64,000 bases of DNA, from the NCBI GenBank assembly GCA_026391805.1, contig JAPLDJ010000027.1, positions 1-64,000 on the forward strand, in the 5' to 3' direction. Origin of the DNA: Bacteroidota bacterium (GTDB lineage Bacteria > Bacteroidota > Bacteroidia > Bacteroidales > FEN-979). The translations under genes and the position numbers were made by a program. This document shows positions 46,385 through 63,606 of this stretch, piece by piece (the stretch's first letter is position 1; every line of letters begins with the position of its first letter). A model generated the notes under the pieces. It was not told where the DNA came from and did no database searches. It was given only the letters and a program-made list of their open reading frames with translations.

Positions 46385-46858
46385 TCAGTATGGTATTTTA
46401 TCAGCTTTCTCACTCCATTCCCTGAAAAGTTCTTCAGCCTGCGGGTGACCGACCTGCTGAAAACGGATCGTTCTCTGTTCAGGTGCAAGTGCGATCTCCT
46501 CATAAATGTGATTATCCTTGAACCCGCTGGCTTCCGCATCGTAACGGGAAGAACAATAAAACACCTCCTTGATGTTGGCCCAGTATATAGCCGACAGGCA
46601 CATCGGGCAGGGTTCGCAGGTCGCATACAGCACTGAACCTTCAAGGTCAAAAGTCGCAAACGTCTTGCATGCATCGCGGATGGCTACGATTTCCGCATGG
46701 GCGGTCGGGTCGTTGGTTGAACTCACCCGGTTCCCGCCTTTGCCGATGATCCGGCCATCCTTTACAACAACAGCCCCGAAAGGTCCGCCGGTGTTGGACC
46801 TTAATGACTCATAGGCAGATTTGAATGCTTCATCAAAGTAGATTGAGTGAGATGTCAT
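46385..46858 (-). CDS. guaD: Guanine deaminase
   Basis: The protein has 157 residues. It is a CDA-fold deaminase with zinc ligands H54 and catalytic E56 (PTAHAEIVAIRDAC) and C84/C87 (TCEPCPMCLSAIYWA). The stretches GGPFGAVVVKDG, SSTNDPTAHAEI, AIYWANIKEVFYCSSRYDAEASGF, DNHIYEEI and a C-terminal Tyr match the small Bacillus-type GuaD rather than tRNA adenosine deaminase. It converts guanine to xanthine and ammonia in the cytoplasm. Standing divergently next to the ygfK operon, it feeds the xanthine-handling enzymes there. Reliability is high for the family and good for guanine as substrate. Confidence 0.88.
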   Translation of the reverse strand: MTSHSIYFDEAFKSAYESLRSNTGGPFGAVVVKDGRIIGKGGNRVSSTNDPTAHAEIVAIRDACKTFATFDLEGSVLYATCEPCPMCLSAIYWANIKEVFYCSSRYDAEASGFKDNHIYEEIALAPEQRTIRFQQVGHPQAEELFREWSEKADKIPY

Positions 46859-47219: not shown

Positions 47220-50200
47220 ATGCGGAAATTCATTCATTTAACCCGGGATCGCGTGTCGGACAGATTTTCACCTCTTCCTCTTCCTGTACTTTTAAAGCTG
47301 ACGCTTGCTGAAATCAGGCTAAAGCGGTTCATGGGCATTCCGGACAATCTCTTTTTTATCCCTGACCCTTCGGATCCCTTCCGGATGGAACGGTACGGGA
47401 AGATCCTCGAAACCCCGGTTGGTGTAGCAGCAGGACCTCATTCGCAGCTGGCGCTCAACATCGTGGCCGCATGGCTCTGTGGCGCACGTTACATCGAGCT
47501 GAAGACGATCCAGACACTGGATGAACTGAATGTTTCCAAGCCCTGCATTGACATGCAGGATGAAGGATACAACTGTGAATGGTCGCAGGAACTGAAAGTG
47601 GAACAGTCGTTCCGCGAATACCTGAACGCCTGGATCCTGATCCACATCCTGCATAAGGAGCTGGGATTTGTGGGAACGCCCGGTGTCATCTTCAACATGA
47701 GCGTGGGCTATAACCTCGAAGGGATCCAAAAAGAAAATGTGCAGGAGTTCCTGAAGAAAATGCAGAATTGCACAGAGGAGCTGAACAAGGCAAAAAATAC
47801 GATCCGTGACATCTATCCTGCCATTGATGAGCTTCAGATCCCATCCTGCATTTCAGACAGTGTAACCCTCAGTACCATGCATGGCTGTCCGCCGGAAGAG
47901 ATCTCGGGGATCGGGCATTACCTGATTGAAGAGAAGAAGCTTCATACCACAATCAAGCTGAATCCGACATTAGTGGGAGCGGAGTTGCTGCGCCACCTGC
48001 TGAATGAGATTGGAGGATTCTCTGCGGAAGTTCCCGACTCCGCTTTCGGCCATGACCTGAAATACGATGATGCCCTGAAGATCCTTCAGTCGCTGAAGGC
48101 GGTCTCATCAGCAAACCAGCTTCTATTCAGTGTCAAGCTGACAAATACACTGGAAAGCCTTAACCGGAAAGGTGTTTTCGATAAGAAGGAAGAGATGGTT
48201 TACATGAGCGGCCGGGCGCTGCATCCCATCAGCATCACCCTCGCCCGGAAACTGCAGAATGATTTCCAGGGAATGCTTGATATCTCCTTTTCGGCCGGGG
48301 CCGACTGTTTCAACATCGCACCCGTGCTTGCCTGCGGACTGAAACCTGTCACCGTTTGCAGCGACCTGCTGAAACCAGGCGGTTATGGCAGGCTTTGGCA
48401 GTATATCGATCATCTCCGCAGGGAATTCTCAGCTGCAGAGGTAAACAGTATCAATGATTATATTCATGTTGTTTCAGGCGGAAATGAAAAAAGTGTAGAA
48501 GAGGCGGCATTGCTGAACCTGAACAATTATGCTGATAAGGTCAGGGAGAATCCTGCATATAAAAAAAGCGGGATCACGGAGCCTGACATTAAAACAGAGA
48601 GAACGCTTGAATTTTTTGATTGCATCCATGCTCCCTGTGTGGATACCTGCCCGGCGAACCAGGATATTCCCGGTTACATGTACCACATCTCAAAGGCGGA
48701 TCCTGCTGCTGCATTTAAAACCATTTTCGAAACGAACCCTTTCCCCTCCGTGACCGGCATGGTGTGCGACCACCTCTGCCAGCTGAAATGCACCCGGATC
48801 AATTACGATGAAGAATTACGGATCAGGGAAATCAAGCGGTACGTTGCGGAGAATGAAAATCCCGCGAATGACGAAAAACCGGCGACACCCTGCGGAAAAA
48901 AAGCTGCTATTATCGGCGCCGGTCCGGCAGGGCTTTCCTGCGCATGGTTCCTGCGCAAAGCCGGGTTTGAAGTTCATGTTTTTGAAGAGAAGAGTTTTCC
49001 CGGCGGAATGGTTTCGGCCGCCATTCCTGCGTTCCGGCTGACAGGTGAAGCCATCGACCGTGATGTACGACGCATCCTGGATTCCGGCGTAATCCTTCAT
49101 GACAATTATAAGGTTGATCAGGAGAATTTTGAAACCATCCGGACGACTCATGATATCCTATTTCTTGCTGCCGGTGCGCAGCAATCGGTTAAGATTGACA
49201 TTGAAGGGTTCGGTTCCGAAGGTGTTATTGACCCGCTCGATTTTTTATTTGATGCCAAGAAAGATCCGAAACCGCTGAAGGGCAAAAATGTGGTGATCAT
49301 CGGTGGTGGCAACACCGCGATGGATGCCGCCCGCGCGGCTTACCGGCTGGTGGGGCATGAGGGGAACGTGACGCTGATATACCGTCGCACGATCCGTGAA
49401 ATGCCGGCCGATAAAGGAGAGATCAAGGCGGTACAGGAAGAAGGGATAAGGATCATTGAACTGACAAACCCTGAACGGGTAATCACTACTGATGGAAAGG
49501 TCAGTTCGCTTGTTAGTTCCCGTAATGTACTTGCGATGGCAGGGAAAGACGGAAGACCAATTCCGGTTAAGGTCCCGGATTCGGAATTTGAGATCTTCTG
49601 TGATACCATCATTCCAGCCATCGGGCAGAAACTGTCCATCGGATTCGCAATGCCGGAACAACTCAAAACGACCGGAAAAGGATATAAGACCACGATTGAT
49701 GGACTGTACATTGGCGGCGATGCCCTCCGGGGCGCCTCCACTGCCATCAATGCCATTGCCGACGGAAGGAAGGCCGCAGAAGAGATCATTGCCGATCTTT
49801 CTTTAGAAAACCGGAAAAACAGAAGAAAACCGGAAAAGGAGATCGATTTTCCCGAACTGATGAAGCGAAAATCGATCCGTCAGTATGGCGTTTCTCCTGC
49901 AGAGACTCCGCTTGATGACCGGATGAACTTCAGCCTCGTCATGGATTCGCTTTCCGGTGAACAGGCAGTGGAAGAAGCATCGCGCTGCCTCCAGTGCGAT
50001 GAGATCTGCAACGTTTGCGTTACCGTTTGTCCCAACCTTGCCAATTTCAGCTACCGCATCGACCCGGCGACTTATCATCTGCAGAAAGCAGTTCGCAGGG
50101 AGGATGGAACCATCGGGTTTGAACCCGACAGGACCTTTGCCGTTGAGCAATCCTGGCAGATCCTGAACATCCGTGACCTCTGCAACGAATGCGGAAATTG

Positions 50201-50537
50201 CACGACCTTCTGTCCAAGCAGCGGCAAGCCTTTTAAAGACAAGCCCGGACTTTGCCTTTCCGTTCCCACGCTGAATGCAGAAGGGGAAGGCTATTTCCTG
50301 AGCCGGCTGCCCGACAGGGATGTCCTTATCTTCAAACAAAAAGAGGGCATAAAAACACTGACACTTGCCGATGGAAAATATCTCTACGAAACCGAAAATG
50401 TAAAAGCTGCCATCAGCCCGGAGGACTTTACACTTTTGAAGGTTGATTTCCTGACACCCTGCACGAAGGAATCTTATTTTACGACTGCAGCAGAGATGAG
50501 CATAGTGATGAAAGGGGCCATGCAGCTGCCGGTATGA
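47220..50537 (+). CDS. ygfK: YgfK-type iron-sulfur flavoprotein (putative selenate reductase subunit family)
   Basis: The protein has 1105 residues, close to E. coli YgfK (about 1030). The N-terminal 430 residues form a dihydroorotate-dehydrogenase-like barrel (ETPVGVAAGPHSQLALNIVAAWLCGARYIELKT). A GltD/NfnL-like half follows: Fe-S ligands CIHAPCVDTCPANQ (about 468) and CDHLCQLKC, the FAD loop IIGAGPAGLSCAWFLRKAG (about 565) and the NAD(P)H loop VVIIGGGNTAMDAARAA (about 694). The C-terminus has cysteine clusters CLQCDEICNVCVTVCP (about 922) and CNECGNCTTFCPSSG (about 988). It should move electrons between a nicotinamide nucleotide and a molybdoenzyme, most likely the FAD-less XdhD-like protein encoded downstream. 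In gut bacteria ygfK belongs to the gene set needed for anaerobic urate breakdown. It opens a six-gene operon. Confidence 0.88.
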   Translation: MRKFIHLTRDRVSDRFSPLPLPVLLKLTLAEIRLKRFMGIPDNLFFIPDPSDPFRMERYGKILETPVGVAAGPHSQLALNIVAAWLCGARYIELKTIQTLDELNVSKPCIDMQDEGYNCEWSQELKVEQSFREYLNAWILIHILHKELGFVGTPGVIFNMSVGYNLEGIQKENVQEFLKKMQNCTEELNKAKNTIRDIYPAIDELQIPSCISDSVTLSTMHGCPPEEISGIGHYLIEEKKLHTTIKLNPTLVGAELLRHLLNEIGGFSAEVPDSAFGHDLKYDDALKILQSLKAVSSANQLLFSVKLTNTLESLNRKGVFDKKEEMVYMSGRALHPISITLARKLQNDFQGMLDISFSAGADCFNIAPVLACGLKPVTVCSDLLKPGGYGRLWQYIDHLRREFSAAEVNSINDYIHVVSGGNEKSVEEAALLNLNNYADKVRENPAYKKSGITEPDIKTERTLEFFDCIHAPCVDTCPANQDIPGYMYHISKADPAAAFKTIFETNPFPSVTGMVCDHLCQLKCTRINYDEELRIREIKRYVAENENPANDEKPATPCGKKAAIIGAGPAGLSCAWFLRKAGFEVHVFEEKSFPGGMVSAAIPAFRLTGEAIDRDVRRILDSGVILHDNYKVDQENFETIRTTHDILFLAAGAQQSVKIDIEGFGSEGVIDPLDFLFDAKKDPKPLKGKNVVIIGGGNTAMDAARAAYRLVGHEGNVTLIYRRTIREMPADKGEIKAVQEEGIRIIELTNPERVITTDGKVSSLVSSRNVLAMAGKDGRPIPVKVPDSEFEIFCDTIIPAIGQKLSIGFAMPEQLKTTGKGYKTTIDGLYIGGDALRGASTAINAIADGRKAAEEIIADLSLENRKNRRKPEKEIDFPELMKRKSIRQYGVSPAETPLDDRMNFSLVMDSLSGEQAVEEASRCLQCDEICNVCVTVCPNLANFSYRIDPATYHLQKAVRREDGTIGFEPDRTFAVEQSWQILNIRDLCNECGNCTTFCPSSGKPFKDKPGLCLSVPTLNAEGEGYFLSRLPDRDVLIFKQKEGIKTLTLADGKYLYETENVKAAISPEDFTLLKVDFLTPCTKESYFTTAAEMSIVMKGAMQLPV

Positions 50538-50557
50538 ACTTTATAGAATTATGAATT

Positions 50558-52030
50558 ATGATACAACTGACTGATAAAATCGTTGACACAAACATCCTGC
50601 AGAAAGCAGTTGACCGTTACCGCGAAAAAGGCATCATCCTTCCGACGTTTGCACAGATGCAAAATCCGGAGCTTATCCCGGGAAAGATAAAAGACCAGTT
50701 GAAGAAAATTGGCCTCTGGGATCTTCATCCGCTCAACCTTTTCCGGATCACCTGGAAAAATGAACCCGTTCAAAGCGGTGGATTGTTTGGCCGTCCGAAT
50801 TTCCTTGAACTCCCGAAAGCCCTCACCGGCATTGATGCACGGATCGTTGTGATGCTGGGCAAATGGTTCCCGACGGGAGCACACAAGGTCGGGGCTGCCT
50901 ACGGATGCCTTGCGCCGCGCATCATAACAGGCCAGTTTGATCCGACGTATCACAAAGCCGTCTGGCCGTCGACGGGAAATTATTGCCGCGGCGGCGCCTT
51001 TGATTCGTACCTCATGGATGTGACGGCCGTTGCCATCCTCCCTGAGGAGATGAGCCGTGAACGATTCGAATGGCTGAAAGAGATCGGCGCCGAAGTGATC
51101 GCCACGCCAGGATGTGAATCGAATGTCAAGGAGATCTACGACAAATGCTGGGAGATCCGCCGCACGCGGGAGGATTGCATGATCTTCAACCAGTTTGAAG
51201 AGTTCGGAAATTCCTGCTGGCATTATGAAGTCACGGGTCATGCGGTGGAAGAGGTCTTCAGGATGATTGCCGGCGATCGTTTACAACTTGCAGCCTATAT
51301 TTCCGCCACCGGTTCTGCAGGAACCATTGCTGCAGGCGATTACCTTCGGACGAAATTCCCGCATCTGAAGGTTGTGGCTTCGGAAGCGCTGCAATGCCCG
51401 ACGCTGCTGCAGAACGGGTTCGGCGGCCACCGCATCGAAGGCATCGGCGACAAGCATGTTCCCTGGATCCACAATGTGAAAAATACGGACGTGGTAACGG
51501 CCATCGACGATGAGGACTGCATGCGGCTGCTACGTGTTTTCAATGAGAAAGAGGGACATCAGTACCTGACGGACATCGGAGTTAGCAGAGAAATGGCCGG
51601 CAACCTGCAGATGATTGGCATTTCAGGCATCGGGAACATCCTTTCCGCCATAAAAACAGCAAAATATTTTGAGTTGAATGGTGATGATGTCCTTGTAACA
51701 ATTGCCACTGATTCGGCAGAGATGTACGGATCGCGTCTTGAAGAACTGACAGCTGAACGGGGCGCCTATTCGTTGCTCCAGGCCGTAAAGGATCATGAAA
51801 AATGCATGATGGGAACTACCACTGACTATATGAAAGACCTCACATATGCTGACCGGAAAGCGATCCATAACTTGAAATACTTTACCTGGGTCGAACAGCA
51901 GGCTAAGGATGTGGAAGACCTCCGCCGGCTGTGGGACGACCGTTCCGTATGGCCGGAGATCTTCAGCCAGCCGGCCCGCTGGGATGAACTGATCAATGAA
52001 TTCAACGACCGGACGGGTCTTCTGAAATAA
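50558..52030 (+). CDS. Fold-type II PLP-dependent enzyme (cysteine synthase/threonine deaminase-like), purine cluster
   Basis: The protein has 490 residues. PLP-binding Lys110 lies in WFPTGAHKVGAAYG. Substrate and phosphate loops are seen in WPSTGNYCRGGAFDS and ISATGSAGTIAAGDYL. The fold is that of tryptophan synthase beta/cysteine synthase, but the exact subfamily is not one I can name. It starts 20 nt after ygfK and 20 nt before another fold-type II enzyme. In E. coli-type purine clusters this place is held by YgeX, a 2,3-diaminopropionate ammonia-lyase of the same fold. I infer an amino-acid ammonia-lyase or similar elimination step, not proven by sequence. Confidence 0.78.
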   Translation: MIQLTDKIVDTNILQKAVDRYREKGIILPTFAQMQNPELIPGKIKDQLKKIGLWDLHPLNLFRITWKNEPVQSGGLFGRPNFLELPKALTGIDARIVVMLGKWFPTGAHKVGAAYGCLAPRIITGQFDPTYHKAVWPSTGNYCRGGAFDSYLMDVTAVAILPEEMSRERFEWLKEIGAEVIATPGCESNVKEIYDKCWEIRRTREDCMIFNQFEEFGNSCWHYEVTGHAVEEVFRMIAGDRLQLAAYISATGSAGTIAAGDYLRTKFPHLKVVASEALQCPTLLQNGFGGHRIEGIGDKHVPWIHNVKNTDVVTAIDDEDCMRLLRVFNEKEGHQYLTDIGVSREMAGNLQMIGISGIGNILSAIKTAKYFELNGDDVLVTIATDSAEMYGSRLEELTAERGAYSLLQAVKDHEKCMMGTTTDYMKDLTYADRKAIHNLKYFTWVEQQAKDVEDLRRLWDDRSVWPEIFSQPARWDELINEFNDRTGLLK

Positions 52031-52050
52031 TCCTTTATCTTTATAACATT

Positions 52051-53307
52051 ATGAAGGATAAATTTCATTATCAATGCACCGATTGCGGAACAAATTATTC
52101 CGGTGAGAAGGTTCTGTATCTCTGTCCTGCCTGCCGGAAGCTGAACCTCCCGGACCGGCCACCGAAAGGGATCCTGAAAACGGTTTATGATTACTCTTCG
52201 GTCCGGCTTTATTATCCCGGCAAGGATCTTTTCCCTGAGCTGCAGAACGATCATTTTTTGCCGCTTCTGCCGTTAAAAGGAATGGATCACTGGCCCAACC
52301 TGCGGATCGGAAATACACCCCTTTACAGGTTAAACCGGCCTGAAACTGAATTTGAAATCTACCTGAAAGACGATTCACAGAATCCCACCTTTTCGTTCAA
52401 GGACCGTGCGTCGGCACTGGTATCAGCCTGGGCCGGTGAAAACGGAATCAGCACCATCATTGCCGCTTCCACCGGGAATGCAGGATCATCGCTGGCCGGA
52501 ATCTGTGCCGCACAGGGACAGCGATCCTTCATCTTTGTTCCGGCGAAAGCCCCGCTGGCGAAACTGACGCAGATCGTGATGTACGGGGCCACCATCATCC
52601 CGGTGAACGGCACTTACGACACCGCCTTTGACATGAGTGTAAAGGCGACTGAGCTCTTTGGCCTGTACAACCGCAACACCGCTTTCAACCCACTGACCAT
52701 TGAAGGAAAGAAGACGGTTTCTTACGAGATCTTCAGCCAATTGAACGAGCAGGTTCCAGACCGTGTTTTTGTCCCAACCGGCGACGGCGTTATCCTTGCT
52801 GGCGTTTACCGGGGCTTTGAAGATCTTCTCATGCTGGGAATCATCGACCGGATGCCGGTCATTGTGGCGGTTCAGTCGGCGGGAAGTCCGAACATGGTAA
52901 ATAATCTTAATGCACCCGACTTCACGATCACACCTTCAGATACAATTGCAGATTCAATTTCCGTGGATGTGCCGAAGAACTTCAACATGTGTGCACAATT
53001 CCTGGACAAGTACCAGGGGGAACATGTGATCGTCAGCGATGAAGAGATCCTTCAGGCATCCGTTCTGGTATCGCGGAATGCCGGTATCTTTCCGGAACCT
53101 GCTGCTGCCGCTGCCTATGCAGGATTGCTGAAAATGGCAGAAAAGGGACGGATTCCGTCGGGTTCAAAGAATATCGTATTGCTCACCGGCTGCGGGCTGA
53201 AAGATCTCAAATCCGTTCAACCCAAAATTCAGCTTCCTGAACCCGTTGAACCGGATATCAATTCCCTCGAAAGAATTTTCAGGTCTGTGAATAAAAATCT
53301 TTCCTGA
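52051..53307 (+). CDS. Threonine synthase-like fold-type II PLP enzyme, purine cluster
   Basis: The protein has 418 residues. A small zinc-ribbon-like N-terminus (C9, C12, C25, C28) precedes the PLP domain. PLP Lys117 lies in NPTFSFKDRASA, and the phosphate loop is ASTGNAGSSLAG. This is the layout of bacterial threonine synthases of the archaeal-type branch, but no thrA or thrB gene is nearby and the gene sits inside the purine operon, 20 nt after one PLP enzyme and 1 nt before the XdhD-like gene. A dedicated catabolic role is therefore more likely than threonine synthesis (inference). A housekeeping threonine synthase remains possible. Confidence 0.75.
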   Translation: MKDKFHYQCTDCGTNYSGEKVLYLCPACRKLNLPDRPPKGILKTVYDYSSVRLYYPGKDLFPELQNDHFLPLLPLKGMDHWPNLRIGNTPLYRLNRPETEFEIYLKDDSQNPTFSFKDRASALVSAWAGENGISTIIAASTGNAGSSLAGICAAQGQRSFIFVPAKAPLAKLTQIVMYGATIIPVNGTYDTAFDMSVKATELFGLYNRNTAFNPLTIEGKKTVSYEIFSQLNEQVPDRVFVPTGDGVILAGVYRGFEDLLMLGIIDRMPVIVAVQSAGSPNMVNNLNAPDFTITPSDTIADSISVDVPKNFNMCAQFLDKYQGEHVIVSDEEILQASVLVSRNAGIFPEPAAAAAYAGLLKMAEKGRIPSGSKNIVLLTGCGLKDLKSVQPKIQLPEPVEPDINSLERIFRSVNKNLS

Positions 53308-53308
53308 A

Positions 53309-55876
53309 ATGATCACCTTTTTCCTGAACGGCAAAGAAATGAAGTATTCCGGCGACGGGGACCGGACACTGCTTTCATGGCTGCGCGAAACGAAAGGCAT
53401 TACCTCTGTAAAAGACGGTTGTTCGGGACAGGCCACCTGTGGCGCCTGCACGGTGGAAATCAACGGGAAGGCAAAACTTTCCTGTACGCAAAAACTGAAG
53501 TTCCTTGAACAGGCACAGGTCATTACCATGGAAGGAATTCCGGAACCTGTGCGCGATGTGATCGCCCAGGCCTTTGTGAACAAAGGCGCTGTCCAGTGCG
53601 GGTTCTGCACGCCGGGACTGATCATGCGGACGAAGGTGCTTTTTACAGAAAATCCAAATCCTTCCCGTGAGGAAATAAAGAAAGCCATCAACCAGAACCT
53701 TTGCCGCTGCACGGGTTACGTGAAGATCGTGGATGCCATTGAAGATGCGCTGAAAACGCTGGCAACAGGCATTGAGGCTCCTGTTGAGAAGACCGGGATG
53801 GGTGTCGGCGGATCGATGAAGAAATATGAAGCCTATGAAACGGCCATCGGTCAGCGGCCGTTTGTTGATGACTTGAAATTTGAAGGAATGGCATTTGCGG
53901 CCTTGCGGTTCAGCGACCATCCGAGGGCGAAAGTAATTTCCATCGATGATTCGGAAGCACGTTCGATGGAAGGAGTGATCCGTATCATAAAGGCTGCCGA
54001 TGTTACCGGCGACCGATACACAGGGCTTATCATCAGCGACTGGCCGCTGATGATCGCACCGGATGAAACGACACGTTACATCGGCGATGTCATTGCAGGC
54101 GTCGTTGCAACGGATGAAGAGACGGCGCGGGCAGCTGCAGCTCTTATTTCCATTGAATATGAAATCCTCGAACCTGTTTCAGATCCGCATAAGGCACTCG
54201 AAGCAGGCGCTCCGCAGGTTCATCCCGGCAGGTCAAACCTCCTGGAGAAATGCGTTGTACGCCGTGGTGAAGCTGCTGATCAGGTCATTCAGAATTCGAA
54301 GTATGTTGCTTCCGGAATTTTTGAAACGCAGCGCATCGAACATGCCTTCCTGGAAACAGAGGTAGCCATTGCCCTGCCGGAAGGCGAAGGAATTCATCTT
54401 TACAGCCAGGGACAAGGAATTTATGTCGATCAGAAACAGGTCGCCTCGCTGCTTGGCCTTGGCGAGGACAAGGTAAGGGTAACACTTGTTCCCTGCGGAG
54501 GAGGTTTCGGTGGCCGCGAAGACATGACTGTACAGGGACATGCTGCACTTTTTGCATGGCTGTTAAAACAACCTGTAAAAGTTCATCTTACCCGCGAGGA
54601 GTCGATTATCATGCATCCGAAACGGCACCCGGTATGGATGGCTATTTCCATCGGCTGTGATGAGAAGGGAATGCTGACAGGCATGAAGCTTCTTGCCATC
54701 GGCGACACCGGCGCCTATGCATCGGTCGGCACGAAAGTGATGGAACGCGTGGCCGGTCATGCAACAGGAGGATATTTTGTGCCGATCGTAAATATCGAAT
54801 CGCTGACCGTCTATACCAACAATATTCCTTCGGGGGCCATGCGCGGCTTCGGCGCCAACCAGGTAGCGTTTGCACTCGAAAGCTGCATCGATGAACTGTG
54901 TGAAAAAGGAGGTTTCGACCGCTGGCAGTTTCGCTGGGACAATGCTCTTTTTTCAGGCAGGATGACAGCTACCGGGCAGATCCTGGAAAAAGGCGTCGGT
55001 ATCCGGCCATGTTTACTGGCATTGAAAGATCATTTTTATGCGGCGAAATATGCCGGGCTGGCGGTCGGGATAAAAAATTCAGGCGTAGGGAACGGGATGA
55101 CCGATTTCAGTGATGTCAGGATCATCATTCTTGAAGGGGGAAAAGTACGGATCGAACATGGCTGGACCGAGATGGGACAGGGGGTTCAGAACATGGCCAT
55201 CCAGGTGCTTCACGAAGAGACCGGGATCGATCCTGCTTCTGTAACGGTTGTGATTGATACGGATGCCGGCTTGCCCACCGGTATGACCACCTCTTCACGG
55301 GCCACGGCCCTGCTGGGCAATGCGATCATCGATGCAGCCGTTTCCCTCAAAAAAGAGCTAAAGGATCATTCGATCGAACAGCTCGCAGGAAACAGCTATC
55401 ACGGAAAATATTATTGCGACTGGACCACCAAACCTGGCGCTGATGTCGACAGGATCATCACCCATTATTCTTATGGATATGCCGCGCAGCTGGTCGTCCT
55501 GGATGATGAAGGCGAGATCAGCAAGGTCTATGCTGCACATGATGCGGGAAAGATCATGAATCCAATGCTCTTTGAAGGACAGATCCAGGGCGCAGTTCAC
55601 ATGGGGCTGGGCTATGCCCTTACCGAAGACCTCCCCATGGAAAACAGCCGGCTGGTCAGCACAAAACTCCGTGACTGCGGTGTACTCACGGCAACACAAA
55701 CCCCGGAGATAGAGGTGATCGGCATTGAAGAGGAAGATCCGGTCGGTCCTTACGGCGCAAAAGGGATCGGTGAGATCGGACTGGTGCCGACGGCTGCCGC
55801 GGTGGCCAATGCCCTCTTCGCTTACGACGGGATCAGGCGCAAACGATTACCCATGAAACGACCGGGGAAAAGGTGA
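53309..55876 (+). CDS. xdhD: Fused [2Fe-2S]-molybdopterin hydroxylase (XdhD-like, FAD-less)
   Basis: The protein has 855 residues. The N-terminal 160 residues carry two [2Fe-2S] clusters: C38, C44, C47, C59 (DGCSGQATCGACTV ... LSC) and the helical-domain set QCGFCTPG ... CRCTG. The rest is the molybdenum subunit of the xanthine oxidase family: EHAFLET, PCGGGFGGRED (about 396), AMRGFGANQ with the substrate Arg (about 510), EMGQGVQNM (about 620), and the catalytic Glu in KGIGEIGLVP (about 821). It lacks the flavin subunit found in XdhABC. E. coli XdhD and selenium-dependent xanthine dehydrogenases have the same fusion. It would hydroxylate (hypo)xanthine or work in the reductive direction on urate, trading electrons with YgfK. 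Confidence 0.87.
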   Translation: MITFFLNGKEMKYSGDGDRTLLSWLRETKGITSVKDGCSGQATCGACTVEINGKAKLSCTQKLKFLEQAQVITMEGIPEPVRDVIAQAFVNKGAVQCGFCTPGLIMRTKVLFTENPNPSREEIKKAINQNLCRCTGYVKIVDAIEDALKTLATGIEAPVEKTGMGVGGSMKKYEAYETAIGQRPFVDDLKFEGMAFAALRFSDHPRAKVISIDDSEARSMEGVIRIIKAADVTGDRYTGLIISDWPLMIAPDETTRYIGDVIAGVVATDEETARAAAALISIEYEILEPVSDPHKALEAGAPQVHPGRSNLLEKCVVRRGEAADQVIQNSKYVASGIFETQRIEHAFLETEVAIALPEGEGIHLYSQGQGIYVDQKQVASLLGLGEDKVRVTLVPCGGGFGGREDMTVQGHAALFAWLLKQPVKVHLTREESIIMHPKRHPVWMAISIGCDEKGMLTGMKLLAIGDTGAYASVGTKVMERVAGHATGGYFVPIVNIESLTVYTNNIPSGAMRGFGANQVAFALESCIDELCEKGGFDRWQFRWDNALFSGRMTATGQILEKGVGIRPCLLALKDHFYAAKYAGLAVGIKNSGVGNGMTDFSDVRIIILEGGKVRIEHGWTEMGQGVQNMAIQVLHEETGIDPASVTVVIDTDAGLPTGMTTSSRATALLGNAIIDAAVSLKKELKDHSIEQLAGNSYHGKYYCDWTTKPGADVDRIITHYSYGYAAQLVVLDDEGEISKVYAAHDAGKIMNPMLFEGQIQGAVHMGLGYALTEDLPMENSRLVSTKLRDCGVLTATQTPEIEVIGIEEEDPVGPYGAKGIGEIGLVPTAAAVANALFAYDGIRRKRLPMKRPGKR

Positions 55877-55938
55877 GAAGTGAGAAGTGAGAAGTGAAAG
55901 GCGAAAGACGAAAGACGAAAAGAATAGTGAACAGTGAA
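55874..55938 (+). repeat. Simple-repeat tract between xdhD-like and ssnA genes
   Basis: Short units GAGAAGT (three copies), AAAGGCG/AAAGACG (three copies) and AGTGAAC fill most of the 79-bp gap. It is the same style of degenerate short repeat seen near 9.3, 13.5, 30.3 and 39.6 kb. Confidence 0.7.
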
Positions 55939-55955
55939 TATTCAATAGTTTTGTA

Positions 55956-57218
55956 ATGATACTTCTAAAGAACGGCACATACATCAACTGGCAGACGCTG
56001 GAATTCAGAGAGGCAGATATCCTTGTGGAAGAAGGAGCGCAGGGGAACCTGGTTTTTTCTCCCACGGAAGGGCATCCTGTTCCTTCTAAAGTCATTGACT
56101 GTACAGGGAAATACATTACCCATTCCTTTGCCAATGGACATCATCATGTCTATTCTGCACTGGCGATGGGAATGAATCCTCCACGTAAAAACCCGGAAAA
56201 CTTTTTGGAGATCCTGCAATACATCTGGTGGAATTTAGACAAAGCCCTCGATCTTGAGATGATCCGTTCCAGTGCGCTGGTGACAGCCATCGCCTGTGCA
56301 AAAAACGGCATCACTTTCGTCGTCGACCACCATGCATCGCCGTTTGCAGTGGCGGGAAGCCTTGAAACCATTGCGCGCGCCTTCGATGAAGCGGGCGTCG
56401 GGCACCTGCTCTGTTATGAAATTTCCGACCGCGACGGTCTTGATTCAGCCCGGAAAGGGCTGCTGGAAACCGAACATTATCTCCGTCATCGTCAGGGGCT
56501 GGTGGGATTGCATGCCTCGTTCACGGTCAGTGATGATACCCTGGAAAGGGCAGTAGACCTGGCCATCCGGACAGATTCGGGGATCCATATGCATGTTGCA
56601 GAAGATAATTCCGATGAGCTCCATTGCCTGGAGCATTACGGCATGCGTATCATGAACCGGCTGGACCAGGCGGGGGCATTACAATTCCCGAAGACGATCC
56701 TTGCCCATTGTCTTCATCTTGATCAGGCCGAACGGAAGATCGTTGCACAATCATCTGCATGGATCGTTCAGAATACGGAGAGCAACCTGAATAACGGGGT
56801 CGGCCATTTTTCCTCTTCCGGACTTGGCCCGAACATCATGCTTGGCACGGATGGCATGCACAGCGACATGCTGCGGAGCGCGAAAGCTGCTTTTTTTGCA
56901 GGACAGGAATACGATTCCATCGATTCTTATGAAACCTATCGTCGCTTCCGGAATGTTCATCATTATCTGAGCAGAAATGAGTTAACCGGCGATGGAGAGA
57001 ACAACCTCGTCATCCTTGATTATGATTCCCCGACTCCATTTAACCAGTCGAATTTTCCAGGGCATTTTCTTTTTGGGATCGAATCAAAGAATGTTCGTCA
57101 TGTGATTTCAGGAGGGAAATTGATTGTGGAGGATGGGCAGATGCTGACCCTCAATGAACCTGAAATTCTTGCCGAAGCTCAAAAACAGGCTGAAAGGCTC
57201 TGGGCGAAAATGAAGTAA
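55956..57218 (+). CDS. ssnA: SsnA-type amidohydrolase
   Basis: The protein has 420 residues and belongs to the TRZ/ATZ-type amidohydrolases. Metal ligands are placed in FANGHHHVYSALAMG (about 59-73), GIHMHVAEDN, ILAHCLHLD and MLGTDGMHSDML. The MNPPRKNPENFLEILQYIWWNLDKALD stretch is typical of SsnA. In purine-degrading gut bacteria ssnA is part of the urate gene set; the substrate is thought to be a purine-ring intermediate, but this is not settled. It is encoded between the XdhD-like gene and hyuA, with 8 nt to the latter. Confidence 0.85.
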   Translation: MILLKNGTYINWQTLEFREADILVEEGAQGNLVFSPTEGHPVPSKVIDCTGKYITHSFANGHHHVYSALAMGMNPPRKNPENFLEILQYIWWNLDKALDLEMIRSSALVTAIACAKNGITFVVDHHASPFAVAGSLETIARAFDEAGVGHLLCYEISDRDGLDSARKGLLETEHYLRHRQGLVGLHASFTVSDDTLERAVDLAIRTDSGIHMHVAEDNSDELHCLEHYGMRIMNRLDQAGALQFPKTILAHCLHLDQAERKIVAQSSAWIVQNTESNLNNGVGHFSSSGLGPNIMLGTDGMHSDMLRSAKAAFFAGQEYDSIDSYETYRRFRNVHHYLSRNELTGDGENNLVILDYDSPTPFNQSNFPGHFLFGIESKNVRHVISGGKLIVEDGQMLTLNEPEILAEAQKQAERLWAKMK

Positions 57219-57226
57219 TTTCTTTT

Positions 57227-58621
57227 ATGGAAACGTTGCTGATTATTAATGGTATTGTTGTAAATGCCGATGCAAGCCGGAAGGCAGGCGTGGCAGTTAG
57301 CAATGCAAGTATCATTGAAGTCGGCAGCATCAATCCGAAAGCATACCCCGGCGCAGCAATCATTGATGCAAAGGGGAAATATGTACTTCCCGGGGGCATC
57401 GATCCCCATGTTCATTTCGCGTTGCCGACATCTGCCGGAAATTCCTCCGATGATTTTGCATCCGGAAGCAGGGCAGCCATTGCAGGCGGAACGACGACGT
57501 TCATTGATTTTGTCACGCCCCGCCGCGGGCAGACGCTCCAGGACGCCCTTGATCAGCGGAAAGCAGAGGCTGCCGGGAGTCTGATCGACTACAAGTTTCA
57601 CCTCGGTATCAGCGAATGGAATTCAGACATTGCTTCGGAACTGGAGGCCTGTTTTGAAAAAGAGAAGATCACCTCCGTTAAAACCTACGTTGCATACAGA
57701 GAGTCGATCGGGATCAGCTATGATGAACTGGAGCAGGTGATGGAAATTGCAGCCTCGGCCGGAAAGCTTGTCCTGGTTCATTGCGAAGACGGAGAGATAA
57801 TCGCCCGCAAAAGGGATGAACTTTTGCGCCTTGGGAAAACCCGGCCCTGTTATCATGCGGCCTCACGTCCGCCGGAAGCCGAGATCCGTGCGGTTGAAAA
57901 GGTGATCGGATTATCCGCAAAGACAGGGTGTTCTGTTTACATTGTCCATACTTCAACCGCTGAAGCGGCCGACGCCATTGCTTCAGCGAAACGGTCGGGA
58001 TTGCCGGTCTTTGCCGAGACCTGTCCGCAGTATTTAGTTCTTGATGAAGCCGTTTATGATGAGGGACTGGATGATTACAAGGTGCTGCCGTACGTGCTTT
58101 CACCACCGGTCCGTTCAGCCTTTGACCGTGAACGACTCTGGGAAGGTTTGTCGGACGGTACGTTCGACACGGTAGCTACCGACCATTGTCCGTTCAACCT
58201 TTACGGTCAGAAGGATCAGGGAATTGATGATTTTACAAAGATCCCGAACGGGGCAGGAGGGATTGAACACCGGTTCAGCTTGCTTTATACTTTTGGTGTT
58301 TCGGAGGGAAGGTTCAATTTGAACCAATTCGTTAAACTGGTCTCCGCCCGTCCGGCAGAGCTGTTCGGGATGGCTGACCGCAAAGGCGGGATCGAAAAAG
58401 GATATGATGCCGATATCGTGATCTGGGACCCGGATGCACAAGGCAGGATCAGTGCTGAGCATCATTTCCAGCGATGCGATACCGATATTTATGAAGGATT
58501 TCAGATCCGCGGTAAACCCGAACTCGTTATTGTGAATGGCAGGATCGCCTTCCGGAACGGGAAATTTGAAAATATTGATCTGAAAGGCCGTTACCTTCCT
58601 GACCTGAACACGGTCAGATAA
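57227..58621 (+). CDS. hyuA: Dihydropyrimidinase/hydantoinase-type amidohydrolase (HyuA)
   Basis: The protein has 464 residues. The binuclear-metal site is complete: GGIDPHVHF (about 57-65), the carboxylated Lys in SVKTYVAYRES, LVHCEDGE, YIVHTST and ATDHCPFN. These features and the overall length match D-hydantoinase/dihydropyrimidinase and allantoinase. In the cluster it would open a cyclic amide formed from the purine skeleton. It is the last gene of the plus-strand operon. Its stop overlaps the end of the convergent ygeW gene by 8 nt. Confidence 0.87.
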   Translation: METLLIINGIVVNADASRKAGVAVSNASIIEVGSINPKAYPGAAIIDAKGKYVLPGGIDPHVHFALPTSAGNSSDDFASGSRAAIAGGTTTFIDFVTPRRGQTLQDALDQRKAEAAGSLIDYKFHLGISEWNSDIASELEACFEKEKITSVKTYVAYRESIGISYDELEQVMEIAASAGKLVLVHCEDGEIIARKRDELLRLGKTRPCYHAASRPPEAEIRAVEKVIGLSAKTGCSVYIVHTSTAEAADAIASAKRSGLPVFAETCPQYLVLDEAVYDEGLDDYKVLPYVLSPPVRSAFDRERLWEGLSDGTFDTVATDHCPFNLYGQKDQGIDDFTKIPNGAGGIEHRFSLLYTFGVSEGRFNLNQFVKLVSARPAELFGMADRKGGIEKGYDADIVIWDPDAQGRISAEHHFQRCDTDIYEGFQIRGKPELVIVNGRIAFRNGKFENIDLKGRYLPDLNTVR

Positions 58622-59804
58622 CCCTTTTTACATCGGCATCGACAAGCTTTCTCAGGGTATCAGCCGGATTTTCGAACCGGTTGGTCAGCATCATCGCAGC
58701 AATGATATAGGGCTTGAACCCGGCCTGGATGTAAAGGGGAACCCGGTAACGCTCAAAGACCGAACCTGCAACTTCGCCTTCGGTGCAGGAAACGCCTGAA
58801 ATGTCGGCCGGAAGGCAGTGCATGTAAAGGGCTTTTCCTCCGTTTGTAAGTTTCATTTTCTCTTCCGTACATTCCCAATCCTTGAAGCGGGCATTGTTCG
58901 CCAGGCATTCCTTTTCAAGTCCTTTTAATCCGTCGTGATCATTTGCTCGGAGAAGTTCCGTCCGGCGCTGCATGACATGATACGGCGCCCAGCTCTTGGG
59001 ATAAACGATATCGGCATCACGGAAAGCATCCTCCATTGAATTTACAATGCGGAGATTGCCGCCGCTCTCTTTTGCCTGTTGACCGGCCAGTTCCACCACC
59101 TCTGGAATAAGTCCGTATCCTTCCGGGTAGGCAAGATCAACCTGCACCCCGAGACGGGTCATCAGCCCGATGATGCCCTGCGGAACCGAAAGTGGTTTTC
59201 CATAGCTGGGAGAGTAAGCCCAGGTCATGGCAATCTTTTTCCCTTTCAGCGCTTCAAGCGAGCCGAACTCGGTTTTCAGGTGCAGCAGGTCTGCCATCGA
59301 CTGTGTGGGATGATCTATGTCGCACTGGAGGTTGATGATCCCCGGGCGCTGCGGAAGGACGCCATCCCTGTATGCCTCGTCAAGCGCTGCGCCGACTTCG
59401 CGCATGTATGCATTGCCGGCACCCAGGAACATGTCGTCGCGGATACCGATGATATCGCTGAGGAAAGAGATCATGGCCGAGGTTTCACGGACGGTCTCGC
59501 CGTGTTCAATCTGCGACTTACCCTCGTCGAGGTCCTGGACGGCCAGTCCGAGCAGGTTCGCCGCGGATGCAAATGAAAACCGTGTTCGTGTTGAATTGTC
59601 GCGGAACTGTGAGATGGCCAGTCCTGAATCAAAGCAGCGGGATGAAATATTCTGATCACGCAGATGTTTCAGGGCTTCGGCAACAGTCAGGATCGTTTCC
59701 AGTTCACCGTAACTTTTTTCCCATGTAAGGAGAAAGTCTTTCTGGTAAAGGTTTGAAACCGTTGATTCAAGTTTTTGGAAGAAGGAATCAAAAGAATTAG
59801 CCAT
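58614..59804 (-). CDS. ygeW: Knotted carbamoyltransferase YgeW
   Basis: The protein has 396 residues. It is an aspartate/ornithine-carbamoyltransferase-fold enzyme with the carbamoyl-phosphate motif DNSTRTRFSFASAA, the HPTQ motif (CDIDHPTQSMAD) and MHCLPADI. The LDEGKSQIEHGETVRETSAMI insertion and the extra length are those of YgeW, the knotted branch. YgeW probably carries carbamoyl groups from a urate-derived ureido compound to phosphate, so that carbamate kinase can make ATP; the natural amine partner is not firmly known. No carbamate kinase gene is in the window. It lies convergent to hyuA. Confidence 0.9.
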   Translation of the reverse strand: MANSFDSFFQKLESTVSNLYQKDFLLTWEKSYGELETILTVAEALKHLRDQNISSRCFDSGLAISQFRDNSTRTRFSFASAANLLGLAVQDLDEGKSQIEHGETVRETSAMISFLSDIIGIRDDMFLGAGNAYMREVGAALDEAYRDGVLPQRPGIINLQCDIDHPTQSMADLLHLKTEFGSLEALKGKKIAMTWAYSPSYGKPLSVPQGIIGLMTRLGVQVDLAYPEGYGLIPEVVELAGQQAKESGGNLRIVNSMEDAFRDADIVYPKSWAPYHVMQRRTELLRANDHDGLKGLEKECLANNARFKDWECTEEKMKLTNGGKALYMHCLPADISGVSCTEGEVAGSVFERYRVPLYIQAGFKPYIIAAMMLTNRFENPADTLRKLVDADVKRVI

Positions 59805-59846
59805 AGTTTGTTAACTAAAATTGTTGGAATAATATCTTCAGTTTGC

Positions 59847-59923
59847 GGCGGAGTTACAAACTCCGCCGAGCATTTTCATATTAAGATTTTTTAGAGTCCT
59901 GAGCGGAATTTGCAATTCCGCTC
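59847..59923. repeat. Second pair of GCGG-type palindromes
   Basis: GGCGGAGTT-ACA-AACTCCGCC (59847-59867) and GAGCGGAATT-TGC-AATTCCGCTC (59901-59923) lie between ygeY and ygeW on the minus strand. They share stem sequence, 3-nt loop and pairing with the set at 42301-42352. Confidence 0.8.
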
Positions 59924-59949
59924 TACAACCTGTAATGTTTTTTTAAATC

Positions 59950-61137
59950 TTAAATCTGATATACCAGCGCTGCATAAAAAGCCGATGCAGCAACAAGATC
60001 GCTGACCGGCACCTTTTCATCCGGGGCATGCGCCAGAACTTCATTCCCGGGGCCGAAGCCGATGCAGGGGATCCCGTAAAATCCGTTGATCGTTACGCCA
60101 TTTGTGGAAAAAGTCCATTTATCGATCAGTGGCGCTTTGCCGAAAAGACCAGAAAAGGCTTTCCCTGCGGCCGTCACAAGCAGATGGTCCTCTTCAATTT
60201 TCCAGGTCGGGTAGTACTTTTCCATGCCGTACCGCATTCCTGTGTAAGCTGTTTCCTCATAATTGAGAACCCTGATCTCTGCATCAAAATCTTTAACGAT
60301 CTCGCGGATCTCCGCAACCGCTGATTCCTTTGTTTCTCCCCAGGTAAGCCGTCGGTCGAGGTGGATCTTTGCATAATCCGCCACGGCGCAAAGGGAAGGA
60401 CTTCCCGAAACAATTTCGGAGATGGTGACACTTCCTTTGCCGAGGAAAGGATCCGAACGCAACCGTTCATTCAGCTTTTCGATCTCCAGGCAGGCGCGTG
60501 AAGCCATGTAGATGGCGTTCCTGCCGCGTTCGGGAGCAGAGCCGTGCGAGGAAAGTCCGCGGAAACTGATTTCGATCTCCATCCTGCCGCGGTGGCCGCG
60601 ATAAATGTTCAGGTTGGTGGGTTCCGTGATGACGGCGAAATCAGGCTTTATCTTTTCCTCTTCTACCAGGTATTTCCAGCAGAGTCCGTCGCAATCTTCC
60701 TCAATGACTGTTCCTGTGAATAATATTGTGAGATCACGGTCAAATGCAAGCTCTTTCAGGATCCTTCCGGCAGTGACAAAAGCAGCCGGCCCTCCCTTCT
60801 GGTCAACGGTTCCCCGGCCATGTACATAACCATCTTTGATCTCGCCTGAAAAGGGATCGAAGCTCCAGTTGGCAGCATTTCCCACATCCACCGTATCGAT
60901 ATGGCCATCAAAAACAATCGTCTTCTGACCCTTGCCGATGCGTCCGATCACGTTGCCCAGTCCGTCAATCCTGGCTTCATCGAAACCGGCTTCCAGCATC
61001 TGGCGTACAAGTTCCTCCGCAACGGCTTTTTCACCGGTGCTCAGAGATTTGATTTGAATCAGTTTCGAAAGATTCGTGGCTGTATAACCGGCGTAGTTGT
61101 CAGCGAGTTTGTTGATCTTTTTCAGTAGTTCATCCAT
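59950..61137 (-). CDS. ygeY: YgeY-type M20 metallohydrolase
   Basis: The protein has 395 residues from the ATG at 61137 (MDELLKKINKLADN). A longer frame would add 24 residues that are only a translation of the CACAGAG repeat. M20 peptidase/deacylase features: metal ligands in VFDGHIDTVDVG, GRGTVDQKGG, the EED pair (TVIEEDCDG), ITEPTN and a C-terminal His (LAHAPDEKV). The dimerisation-domain motif is SSHGSAPERGRNA. It is typical of YgeY, whose product is linked in gut bacteria to urate and selenium-dependent purine catabolism. It probably hydrolyses an N-acyl or N-carbamoyl amino acid made by ring opening. Confidence 0.87.
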   Translation of the reverse strand: MDELLKKINKLADNYAGYTATNLSKLIQIKSLSTGEKAVAEELVRQMLEAGFDEARIDGLGNVIGRIGKGQKTIVFDGHIDTVDVGNAANWSFDPFSGEIKDGYVHGRGTVDQKGGPAAFVTAGRILKELAFDRDLTILFTGTVIEEDCDGLCWKYLVEEEKIKPDFAVITEPTNLNIYRGHRGRMEIEISFRGLSSHGSAPERGRNAIYMASRACLEIEKLNERLRSDPFLGKGSVTISEIVSGSPSLCAVADYAKIHLDRRLTWGETKESAVAEIREIVKDFDAEIRVLNYEETAYTGMRYGMEKYYPTWKIEEDHLLVTAAGKAFSGLFGKAPLIDKWTFSTNGVTINGFYGIPCIGFGPGNEVLAHAPDEKVPVSDLVAASAFYAALVYQI

Positions 61138-61150
61138 GTTATAAGATTTT

Positions 61151-61244
61151 CTTCTCTGTGAACCTCCGTGTCTTCTCTGTGTAACTCCGTGTAATATTTT
61201 TTGTTTCACAGAGGTTCACAGAGAAGGCACAGAGTTACACAGAG
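61151..61244. repeat. CACAGAG-type long hairpin repeat
   Basis: CTTCTCTGTGAACCTCCGTG... and its facing arm CACAGAGGTTCACAGAGAAG... form a long imperfect hairpin around TAATATTTTTTG, between ygeY and xdhB. It is the uninterrupted form of the repeat at 46247-46358. Confidence 0.75.
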
Positions 61245-61299
61245 TCTATAGGCTGCCTATAAACGGGAGAGTCCGCATTCTGATGCAAAATTAACTAAT

Positions 61300-63606
61300 C
61301 TATCCGATTCTCTTTTTCAATTTCTCTGATGAGAGAAGGATCACCTCATAGGTAGCAGGAAGGGTGAAATCAGGCTCCGTTTCGTGATTGCCGACGGCAG
61401 AGATGGCGTCCTTGATGGCCAGCCAGACCGAAAACGACAGCATGAACGGCGGCTCGCCAACGGCTTTGCTTTGACGGATGGTGCCGGGGTTGGGAACATC
61501 CTTCAGGATCTCCACCCGGAAATCCGCTGGAATGTCATTCACTGTAGGGATCTTGTAGGTGTCCGGGGAATGGGTTATCTGGTGGCCGGTGCTGTCCCAT
61601 TTCATTTCTTCCGTCGTACACCAGCCGACGCCCTGGATAAATCCGCCCTCAACCTGCCCCCGGTCGATCCCTTCGTTCAGCGAATCGCCGACATCATGCA
61701 CGATGTCGGTCCGGAGCAGCCGGTGCATGCCGGTCAGCGTATCAATGACCACTTCCGATACGGCCATTCCGAAGGCATAATAATAAAAAGGCGTTCCCTG
61801 TCCTTTTTCCTTGTCGAAGGAAATGCCCGGTGTCTTGTAAAAGCCGGTAGAGCTCAGGCTGACCTGCTTCAGGTAGGCTATTTTCAGGAGGTCAGGAAAA
61901 GCGATTGTACGATCCGGATTTTCCTTGTCAGAAACGACATTATTATGGAAAAGAATATTTTCTTTCCGGGACCTGTCATCCTTAGTTTTCTTCTTAAACT
62001 CAGCCACTGAAACTTCGGCAAGCCTGGACTTCAGGATATCGATTGCGTTCTTCACTGCCATCCCGTTCAGATCGCTGCCTGATGAAGCAGCCGTCGCGGA
62101 TGTATTGGGAACTTTTGATGTATTGGTGGCATTCACCCTGACCTGCCCGGTGCCTACCCCCAACTCTGCCGCAGCGATCCTGAGGATCTTGGTATGCAGC
62201 CCCTGGCCCATCTCGGTTCCCCCGTGGTTGACCAGGACGGTTCCGTCGGTATAAAGGTTCACCAATGCACCGGCCTGGTTGAGGAATGCAGTTGTAAAAG
62301 AGATCCCGAATTTGACGGGTGTCAGGGCAAGGCCTTTTTTATAGAATTCATGTTCGCGGTTGAACCGGACGATCTCTTCCCTCCGTTTGAAATATTCCGA
62401 CGAGCCGATGAGCTTGTCGTACATCATATGAAGGTGATTGTTCTTCACTTCCTGGCCATAGGGTGCCAGGTTGTTATGATCATTCCTGTAAAAATTCAGC
62501 AGACGGATCTCAGCTGCGTCTTTCTTCAGAAACCGTGCGATCCGGTCGATTGCATTTTCGATCACGGCCATGCCCTGCGGTCCGCCGAAGCCCCGGAAAG
62601 CCGTATTTGACGGGTGGTTGGTCTTCCATGCATTTCCTCTTATCAGGATATCCGGGATATAATATGCATTTTCAGCATGAAGCATGGCCCGTGAAAGGAT
62701 GGCCAGCGAAAGGTCGGCGGCAGCGCCTGCATCAGCATTCAGTTCCACCTTGTAGGCAAGGATAAGCCCGTTGTCATCAAATCCGATCTCGTATTTTGAG
62801 AGGAAGCGGTGCCGTTTCCCCGTCATCACCTGGTCGTCGTCGCGGAACAGGTGGATCTTTACCGGGCATTTCGTTGCATTGGCGAGCAATGCAGCCCAGG
62901 CGGCCACATGGTTTCCCTGTGTCTCCTTCCCGCCGAAGCCTCCACCCATGCGCCTCACCTCAACCTCAACTTCGTTTTTCGGAATGCCGAGCACCTCCGC
63001 CACAACGGCCTGGGTTTCTGCCGGGTTCTGGCTGGAAGCATGGATCATCATTTCCCTTCCTTCGCCGGAAACGGCAAGGGCCGACTGGGTTTCCAGGTAC
63101 CAGTGTTCCTGGGCGCCCGTCCTTAGTTTGCCCCTGATAACATGCGGTGCATGACTCAAAACTGCATCCGCATCCCCCCGTTCGATCTTACGTTCCACCT
63201 CGATCCGGGTGTTCTTTTCCATGGCGGTTTCAAGATCGAGAATGGCTTCCAGCGGCTGATATTCAACCTTTACAAAAGATGCTGCCTGCTGTGCTGCATC
63301 CTCATTCTCCGCTGCGATCAGCGCAACGGCCTGGCCGATGAATGTAACTTCTTCCTCTGCAAGGCAGGGCTCATCATGGATCACAGGTCCCATCTGGTTT
63401 TCGCCGGGGATGTCGCGGGCGGTCAGGATGGCATGAACTCCTTTTACCTTTAATGCTTCCTCGTAATCAATTCTGAGGATTCTTGCATGGGCATGAGGAC
63501 TGTAAACGACCTTCCCCAGGAGCAGCCGTTCATCCGCCGGGATGTCGTTGATGTAAACGGATTCGCCGGTTACATGCTTGATTGCGCTGTCGTGAGGAAG
63601 ATTCAT
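61300..63606 (-). CDS. xdhB: Xanthine dehydrogenase molybdenum subunit
   Basis: The protein has 768 residues, the usual XdhB length. Active-site signatures are intact: QEHWYLETQ (Glu, about 169), RRMGGGFGGKETQG (about 222), NTAFRGFGGPQG with the substrate Arg (about 331), GGTEMGQGLHTKI (about 462) and the catalytic Glu in KAVGEPPFML (about 714). These residues agree with true xanthine dehydrogenases that oxidise hypoxanthine and xanthine to urate. It overlaps the end of the flavin/Fe-S subunit gene by 4 nt, so the two are coupled. This is the second, and more classical, xanthine oxidase family enzyme in the cluster. Confidence 0.92.
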   Translation of the reverse strand: MNLPHDSAIKHVTGESVYINDIPADERLLLGKVVYSPHAHARILRIDYEEALKVKGVHAILTARDIPGENQMGPVIHDEPCLAEEEVTFIGQAVALIAAENEDAAQQAASFVKVEYQPLEAILDLETAMEKNTRIEVERKIERGDADAVLSHAPHVIRGKLRTGAQEHWYLETQSALAVSGEGREMMIHASSQNPAETQAVVAEVLGIPKNEVEVEVRRMGGGFGGKETQGNHVAAWAALLANATKCPVKIHLFRDDDQVMTGKRHRFLSKYEIGFDDNGLILAYKVELNADAGAAADLSLAILSRAMLHAENAYYIPDILIRGNAWKTNHPSNTAFRGFGGPQGMAVIENAIDRIARFLKKDAAEIRLLNFYRNDHNNLAPYGQEVKNNHLHMMYDKLIGSSEYFKRREEIVRFNREHEFYKKGLALTPVKFGISFTTAFLNQAGALVNLYTDGTVLVNHGGTEMGQGLHTKILRIAAAELGVGTGQVRVNATNTSKVPNTSATAASSGSDLNGMAVKNAIDILKSRLAEVSVAEFKKKTKDDRSRKENILFHNNVVSDKENPDRTIAFPDLLKIAYLKQVSLSSTGFYKTPGISFDKEKGQGTPFYYYAFGMAVSEVVIDTLTGMHRLLRTDIVHDVGDSLNEGIDRGQVEGGFIQGVGWCTTEEMKWDSTGHQITHSPDTYKIPTVNDIPADFRVEILKDVPNPGTIRQSKAVGEPPFMLSFSVWLAIKDAISAVGNHETEPDFTLPATYEVILLSSEKLKKRIG

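Follow-up and report, generated by a model that had tools for sequence, protein, structure and literature searches.

The reductive uric-acid cluster at positions 47220-63606 of the window (the whole 64,000-nt stretch of DNA analyzed) is complete except for YgeX, and the route is probably ended here by two separate PLP enzymes encoded in the same cluster, PLP2, which would displace YgeX, and PLP1, an independent companion. The type of cluster is known; the proposed replacement of YgeX, with the uncharacterised PLP1 family at its centre, was not found described in the literature searched, mostly openly accessible papers.

Composition of the uric-acid cluster

The host genome (G000) is Bacteroidales-like, 3.9 Mb long and 98.3% complete; its nearest named PLP1 relative is a Lentimicrobiaceae MAG. 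The plus strand of the cluster carries YgfK (47220-50537; TIGR03315, 845.8 bits, cut-off 835.3), known as yanthine reductase (PMC12507026), PLP1 (50558-52030; 490 aa, ATG start), PLP2 (52051-53307; 418 aa, ATG start), a XdhAC-type Mo hydroxylase (53309-55876; TIGR03311, 897 bits, cut-off 830), a SsnA-like aminohydrolase (55956-57218) and HyuA/dihydropyrimidinase (57227-58621; TIGR02033, 493.8 bits, cut-off 393). Converging on them from the minus strand are the knotted carbamoyltransferase YgeW (58614-59804; TIGR03316, 647 bits, cut-off 500), the M20 hydrolase YgeY (59950-61209; TIGR03526, 500 bits, cut-off 321.5) and the xanthine dehydrogenase Mo subunit XdhB (61300-63606; TIGR02965, 1021 bits, cut-off 849.5). 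Thus, YgfK, XdhAC, HyuA, YgeW, YgeY and XdhB pass the curated cut-offs. The best match of the product of 55956-57218 is SsnA, yet it scores under the curated cut-offs (369.8 vs 444 for PRK07203; 334 vs 455.5); this plus-strand homologue is short (420 aa), its gene context being nonetheless typical.

PLP1 is a fold-type II PLP enzyme with the Schiff-base residue Lys110, and PLP2 is a PLP enzyme of the threonine-synthase fold with an N-terminal zinc ribbon and the Schiff-base residue Lys117. Both match PF00291 (51 and 241 bits, respectively, cut-off 35). PLP1 starts 20 nt after the YgfK stop at 50537, another 20 nt separate PLP1 from PLP2, and 1 nt lies between the PLP2 stop and the XdhAC start at 53309. 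In these respects the initial annotation, which had described two tandem PLP enzymes embedded in the operon with 20-nt and 1-nt gaps, with Lys110 and Lys117 and a zinc ribbon on the threonine-synthase-like member, is borne out by the analysis. The order YgfK-PLP1-PLP2-XdhAC-SsnA(-HyuA) is repeated in many Bacteroidota, hence the presence of the pair in the operon is not due to chance.

Some further features of the locus were observed. The cluster contains two differing xanthine-dehydrogenase-type Mo subunits (53309-55876 and 61300-63606), of which the former matches the selenium-dependent family TIGR03311. Divergent from YgfK is a TadA/guanine-deaminase-like gene with the cytidine-deaminase fold (46385-46858, minus strand, 157 aa), kept upstream of the operon in 14 loci examined; judging by resemblance, we assume that it is probably a guanine deaminase supplying xanthine to the pathway.

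The published pathway reaches 2,3-diaminopropionate, which YgeX then converts to pyruvate and ammonia (PMC12507026, PMC12990295). By the same scheme, urate would be converted to yanthine by Xdh (by analogy, XdhAC is the probable urate-to-yanthine enzyme; PMC12990295), yanthine to ureidomethyl-hydantoin by YgfK and SsnA, the latter product to 2,3-diureidopropionate by HyuA, and this to 2,3-diaminopropionate by YgeW and YgeY.

Absence of YgeX

The initial annotation had noted the lack of a YgeX-like gene in this locus, and the same holds for the rest of the genome. The best TIGR03528 score in the 98.3% complete assembly is 24.4 bits (cut-off 532.25) and belongs to PLP2 itself, PLP1 has no TIGR03528 match, and no match to TIGR01747 at E<=1e-50 was found anywhere in G000. 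Moreover, the genome has five PF00291 genes, PLP1, PLP2, a separate CysK (410 bits, cut-off 351), a BhcB/threonine-dehydratase-like gene and a separate ThrC (246 bits, cut-off 167). With a ThrC and a CysK encoded elsewhere in G000, housekeeping threonine synthesis does not depend on PLP2, nor cysteine synthesis on PLP1. The motif in question is PSTGN in PLP1 and ASTGN in PLP2, with invariant Thr139 and Thr141, respectively, so that Asp120, which we take from the E. coli structure work to be the second base of YgeX (in TDGN), is missing from both.

Co-occurrence of PLP1, PLP2 and YgeX

Within its order, the PLP1+PLP2 pair is regular and not exceptional. Among 247 sampled genomes of the order, YgeW over the cut-off is present in 62, PLP1 in 63, PLP2 in 60 and the YgeX family in 9. 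The 62 genomes with YgeW comprise 52 with PLP1 and PLP2, three with PLP1 and YgeX, three with PLP1 only (77-88% complete), two with PLP2 only (G080 and G093), one with PLP2 and YgeX (G125) and one with YgeX only, a YgeX-family lyase being found in 5 of the 62. The gene-content pattern spans many families. Fisher tests yield p=2e-45 for YgeW-PLP1, p=5e-41 for YgeW-PLP2 and p=4e-40 for PLP1-PLP2, although these values overstate independence, since the genomes are related. YgfK over the cut-off is present in four of the five PLP1 genomes having no YgeW over the cut-off.

YgeX is absent from all 55 genomes of the order with both PLP1 and PLP2, and present in three of the eight PLP1 genomes without PLP2. 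The PLP1 family as a whole spans many phyla, with at least 591 loci, and the second sample consisted of 19 PLP1-carrying genomes, most of which belong to other phyla. Thirteen of the 19 carry PLP2 (a weak, 33% PLP2-like match in G292 being scored as absent), five of the six without PLP2 have YgeX, and two have both. Taken over the 63 PLP1 genomes of the order and the second sample, with two loci already known to carry YgeX left out, the complementarity of PLP2 and YgeX has p=4e-6.

Since YgeW or a YgeW-like carbamoyltransferase is present in 17 of these 19 genomes, and PLP2 or YgeX in 18, the idea that loci with PLP1 only indicate a role outside urate degradation was dropped, with the exception of G076 and G292/L139. 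The latter lacks YgeW and YgeX and has the weak PLP2-like match only. In G076 (L154:132-8172), the gene order around a divergent PLP1 is XdhA-XdhC-XdhB-XdhC maturation factor-PLP1-8-oxoguanine deaminase, and the search of this genome yielded no YgeX, no PLP2, and neither YgeW nor YgfK over the cut-off. A separate observation concerns three Chloroflexota and Elusimicrobiota PLP1/PLP2 loci (L118, L128, L136), each with two carbamoyltransferases and a carbamate kinase, which suggests that both ureido groups may be phosphorolysed there.

Exchange of PLP2 with YgeX

In two genomes, YgeX occupies the slot of PLP2, the gene orders being YgfK-PLP1-YgeX (G062) and PLP1-YgeX-XdhAC (G280). A third genome with PLP1 and YgeX and without PLP2 (G164) has YgeX on another contig, and in a SAR324 genome the order is YqeA-YgeW-YgeY-YgeX-PLP1. 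In G109, an E. coli-type YgeX is encoded on a separate contig, YgfK abuts XdhAC, and neither PLP gene is left. The exchange of PLP2 with YgeX may go back to no more than one or two events.

PLP1, PLP2 and an E. coli-type YgeX are all present in Diplocloster (L117) and in a Kiritimatiellae genome. The Diplocloster modestus locus (L117:9881-21280) has, besides a PLP1-PLP2 tandem, the genes YqeA-YgeW-YgeY-YgeX as a run of their own, in which YgeX reaches a full score.

Given this exchange and the complementarity among PLP1 genomes, PLP2 is best read as the replacement of YgeX, while the retention of PLP1 beside YgeX-family lyases indicates that PLP1 has another job. Speaking against this reading are the coexistence of all three enzymes in Diplocloster and the Kiritimatiellae genome, the occurrence of YgeW and PLP2 but no PLP1 in G080, G093 and G125, and the isolated PLP1 of G076. 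The suggestion that the pair stands in for YgeX therefore holds in part: YgeX is absent and the pair is regular in the uric-acid operon, but the two genes are not equivalent, only PLP2 being exchanged with YgeX.

Two groups can be told apart among the YgeX proteins, one of the E. coli type, with those of E. coli, Diplocloster, G109 and G284, and a separate one with most PLP1-associated YgeX. All eight YgeX from PLP1 genomes without PLP2 have Tyr for Trp192, beside Asp189, while Trp is kept in the six other YgeX examined. One of the eight, from L160, forms a long branch outside the separate group. The change to Tyr192, judged from the alignment, is also what would be expected from one lineage-specific substitution.

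Features of PLP2

The PLP2 model (pLDDT 92.5) has the threonine-synthase fold (Z 44.4, rmsd 2.2 over 371 residues to 2c2b_A), serine and threonine dehydratases being among the fold neighbours. The score is narrowly over the cut-off of TIGR00260 (171.3 vs 167.1) and under that of the zinc-ribbon branch model PRK08197 (206.4 vs 303). In 29 PLP2 homologues, Lys117 (in SFKDR) is invariant, as are the zinc-ribbon cysteines C9, C12 and C25, while C28 is present in 22 and replaced by D/H in the others.

The Arg of the NPxRxEG motif, presumably the substrate-phosphate site of threonine synthase, is present in four of four solved threonine synthases and replaced by Thr, Leu or Met in all 29 PLP2 homologues. 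Moreover, the GNAGN stretch of threonine synthases has become GDG, with one Asn replaced by Asp245, invariant in the 29 homologues. These two replacements set PLP2 apart from ordinary threonine synthases. An acid gained and a phosphate-binding Arg lost would fit ammonium, not phosphate, as the leaving group. PLP2 would most likely be the ammonia-eliminating lyase, acting in the stead of YgeX by non-orthologous displacement.

Features and possible role of PLP1

The AlphaFold2 model of PLP1 (pLDDT 90.8) has a core of the CysK/CBS/beta-cyanoalanine synthase fold. The top structural matches are all of this type (Z 32-36), in particular beta-cyanoalanine synthase (Z 35.7, rmsd 2.4, 312 residues), and about 40 N-terminal and 75 C-terminal amino acids lie outside the core. 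At the same time, PLP1 scores under all NCBIfam cut-offs, including those of the cysK-type models TIGR01139 and TIGR01136 (107.6 vs 351 and 101.2 vs 344 bits, respectively). In 39 homologues, Lys110 (in TGAHK) is invariant, as well as Ser138-Thr139-Gly140-Asn141, Cys143, Gln212, Cys280, Glu294 and Asp298-Lys299-His300; alignment with CysK points to a putative substrate-facing set among these residues.

The operon neighbours of PLP1 were also considered as a guide to its chemistry, but they vary (glycosyltransferase, VanZ, CCA-polymerase, alanine racemase, aconitase, TRAP and ABC transporters, among others) and point to no common function. OrtB (2-amino-4-ketopentanoate thiolase), also considered, was in no match list.

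Gene content, gene order, complementarity, folds and the loss of the threonine-synthase phosphate-site Arg are observed; the substrates and products of both enzymes are all inferred. PLP1, with its CysK/CBS affinity, would be an independent companion of either PLP2 or the PLP1-associated type of YgeX, adding something that the E. coli-type YgeX does without (as in E. coli and G109). Our best guess is that it takes care of the diaminopropionate enantiomer that its partner cannot use, either by racemization or as a lyase for that enantiomer; next best is conversion of diaminopropionate to L-serine, which the partner would deaminate. E. coli YgeX accepts both L- and D-diaminopropionate (PMC12507026). 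Since Lys77, Asp120 and Asp189 are kept in PLP1-associated YgeX, these proteins perhaps act on both enantiomers too, which weakens the stereochemical role of PLP1; Asp120 also fails as a D/L discriminator, as PLP1-associated YgeX retain it. That PLP1 is a new CysK-like family with a pathway-specific activity outside the published pathway (diaminopropionate racemase, one-enantiomer lyase or serine-forming hydrolase), and that urate carbon across much of the bacterial tree ends via PLP1 and PLP2 (or a specialised YgeX) and not via the E. coli-type YgeX alone, has in our estimate close to an even chance.

The serine variant can be drawn as a strict two-step relay, in which a beta-replacement by PLP1, with water, would yield L-serine from 2,3-diaminopropionate or albizziin, and the deamination of L-serine to pyruvate would fall to PLP2 or to the PLP1-associated YgeX. 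CysK/CBS-fold proteins are beta-replacement enzymes, dehydratases are found near PLP2 in fold space, and FN1055, a CysK-family enzyme converting L-cysteine to H2S and L-serine (PMC9600241), provides a precedent for L-serine formation from a beta-substituted alanine and is among the closest folds to PLP1 (5z5c, Z 34.4; 5b55, Z 34.1). However, a YgeX-family partner could use diaminopropionate directly, water as the nucleophile is not tied to any PLP1 residue, and the step is unneeded in E. coli-type clusters, so we consider this relay unlikely.

It is still less probable that PLP1 does not act on diaminopropionate but, in the manner of a cysteine desulfhydrase, supplies sulfur or selenium to the Mo hydroxylases of the cluster. 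The CysK-like fold, the invariant Cys143 and Cys280, the XdhC-type maturation gene adjoining PLP1 in L108 and the Xdh and 8-oxoguanine deaminase genes around it in G076 would agree with such a function, but the Mo hydroxylases of the E. coli cluster and XdhAC of G109 do without PLP1, and in L081, L083 and L101 PLP1 lies beside YgeY or YgeX, not Xdh.

Equally doubtful is the reading of both proteins as mere operon passengers, PLP2 being a second threonine synthase of the ordinary kind and PLP1 an enzyme similar to cysteine synthase, with another protein replacing YgeX: the fold of PLP2 and its narrow pass of TIGR00260 speak for it, whereas the separate ThrC and CysK, the phosphate-site Arg missing throughout the PLP2 homologues, the tight co-occurrence with YgeW and the exchange with YgeX speak against it. 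Finally, an obligate PLP1-PLP2 hetero-oligomer jointly replacing YgeX, the two-subunit enzyme envisaged in the initial annotation, is very improbable despite the adjoining genes and their co-occurrence, as PLP1 is found without PLP2 and with YgeX instead, the genes of several genomes lie kilobases apart or differ in strand or contig, and the proteins, both with an invariant catalytic Lys, belong to differing subfamilies of fold type II.

Implications for the anaerobic urate pathway

The preferred reading, with PLP2 displacing YgeX and PLP1 as its independent companion, bears on a pathway whose elucidation, in E. coli and clostridia, dates back no further than 2025. In the neighbourhood analysis of Li et al. 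(PMC12507026), YgeX was any PF00291 protein within 15 genes of SsnA, a criterion that PLP1 and PLP2 match too, so that the analysis was unable to separate them from YgeX. A search for words in Bacteroid- showed no Bacteroidota among the phyla named in the main text of that paper. For bacteria other than the E. coli and Clostridium types, the pathway as published is probably not complete. If our reading is right, the pathway of Bacteroidales, and probably also that of Chloroflexota, Elusimicrobiota and Planctomycetota, most commonly ends with two other enzymes, one of them uncharacterised. Moreover, PLP1 and PLP2 make the stereochemistry of late pathway intermediates, raised as an open question (PMC12990295), directly testable, and would be a better marker set for detecting uricolytic bacteria.

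Comparison with known systems

The E. coli YgeX (TIGR03528, TIGR01747) resembles the enzymes described here in pathway position and as a fold-type II PLP enzyme, and in two genomes it takes the operon slot of PLP2, but neither PLP1 nor PLP2 matches its family, and its TDGN motif with Asp120 corresponds to STGN in both. PLP2 is similar to threonine synthases (TIGR00260; NF006050/PRK08197 branch) in the fold, the zinc-ribbon N-terminus and the SFKDR and TGxGLKD motifs; unlike them, it is encoded in a catabolic operon, with an independent ThrC in the same genome. PLP1 shares the core fold and about 25% identity with cysteine synthase, cystathionine beta-synthase and beta-cyanoalanine synthase, and its conserved Gln212 falls on the position of CysK Gln142 in the alignment made here. 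It differs from CysK in its low family score (107.6 bits), the STGNYCRGG loop, the invariant Asp298-Lys299-His300 and the N- and C-terminal extensions, absent from CysK. As for the cluster as a whole, YgfK, Xdh, HyuA, YgeW, YgeY and, by best match, SsnA are common to it and to the reductive uric-acid (yanthine) cluster that PMC12507026 describes for E. coli and C. difficile, while in G000 YgeX is probably replaced and PLP1 is extra.
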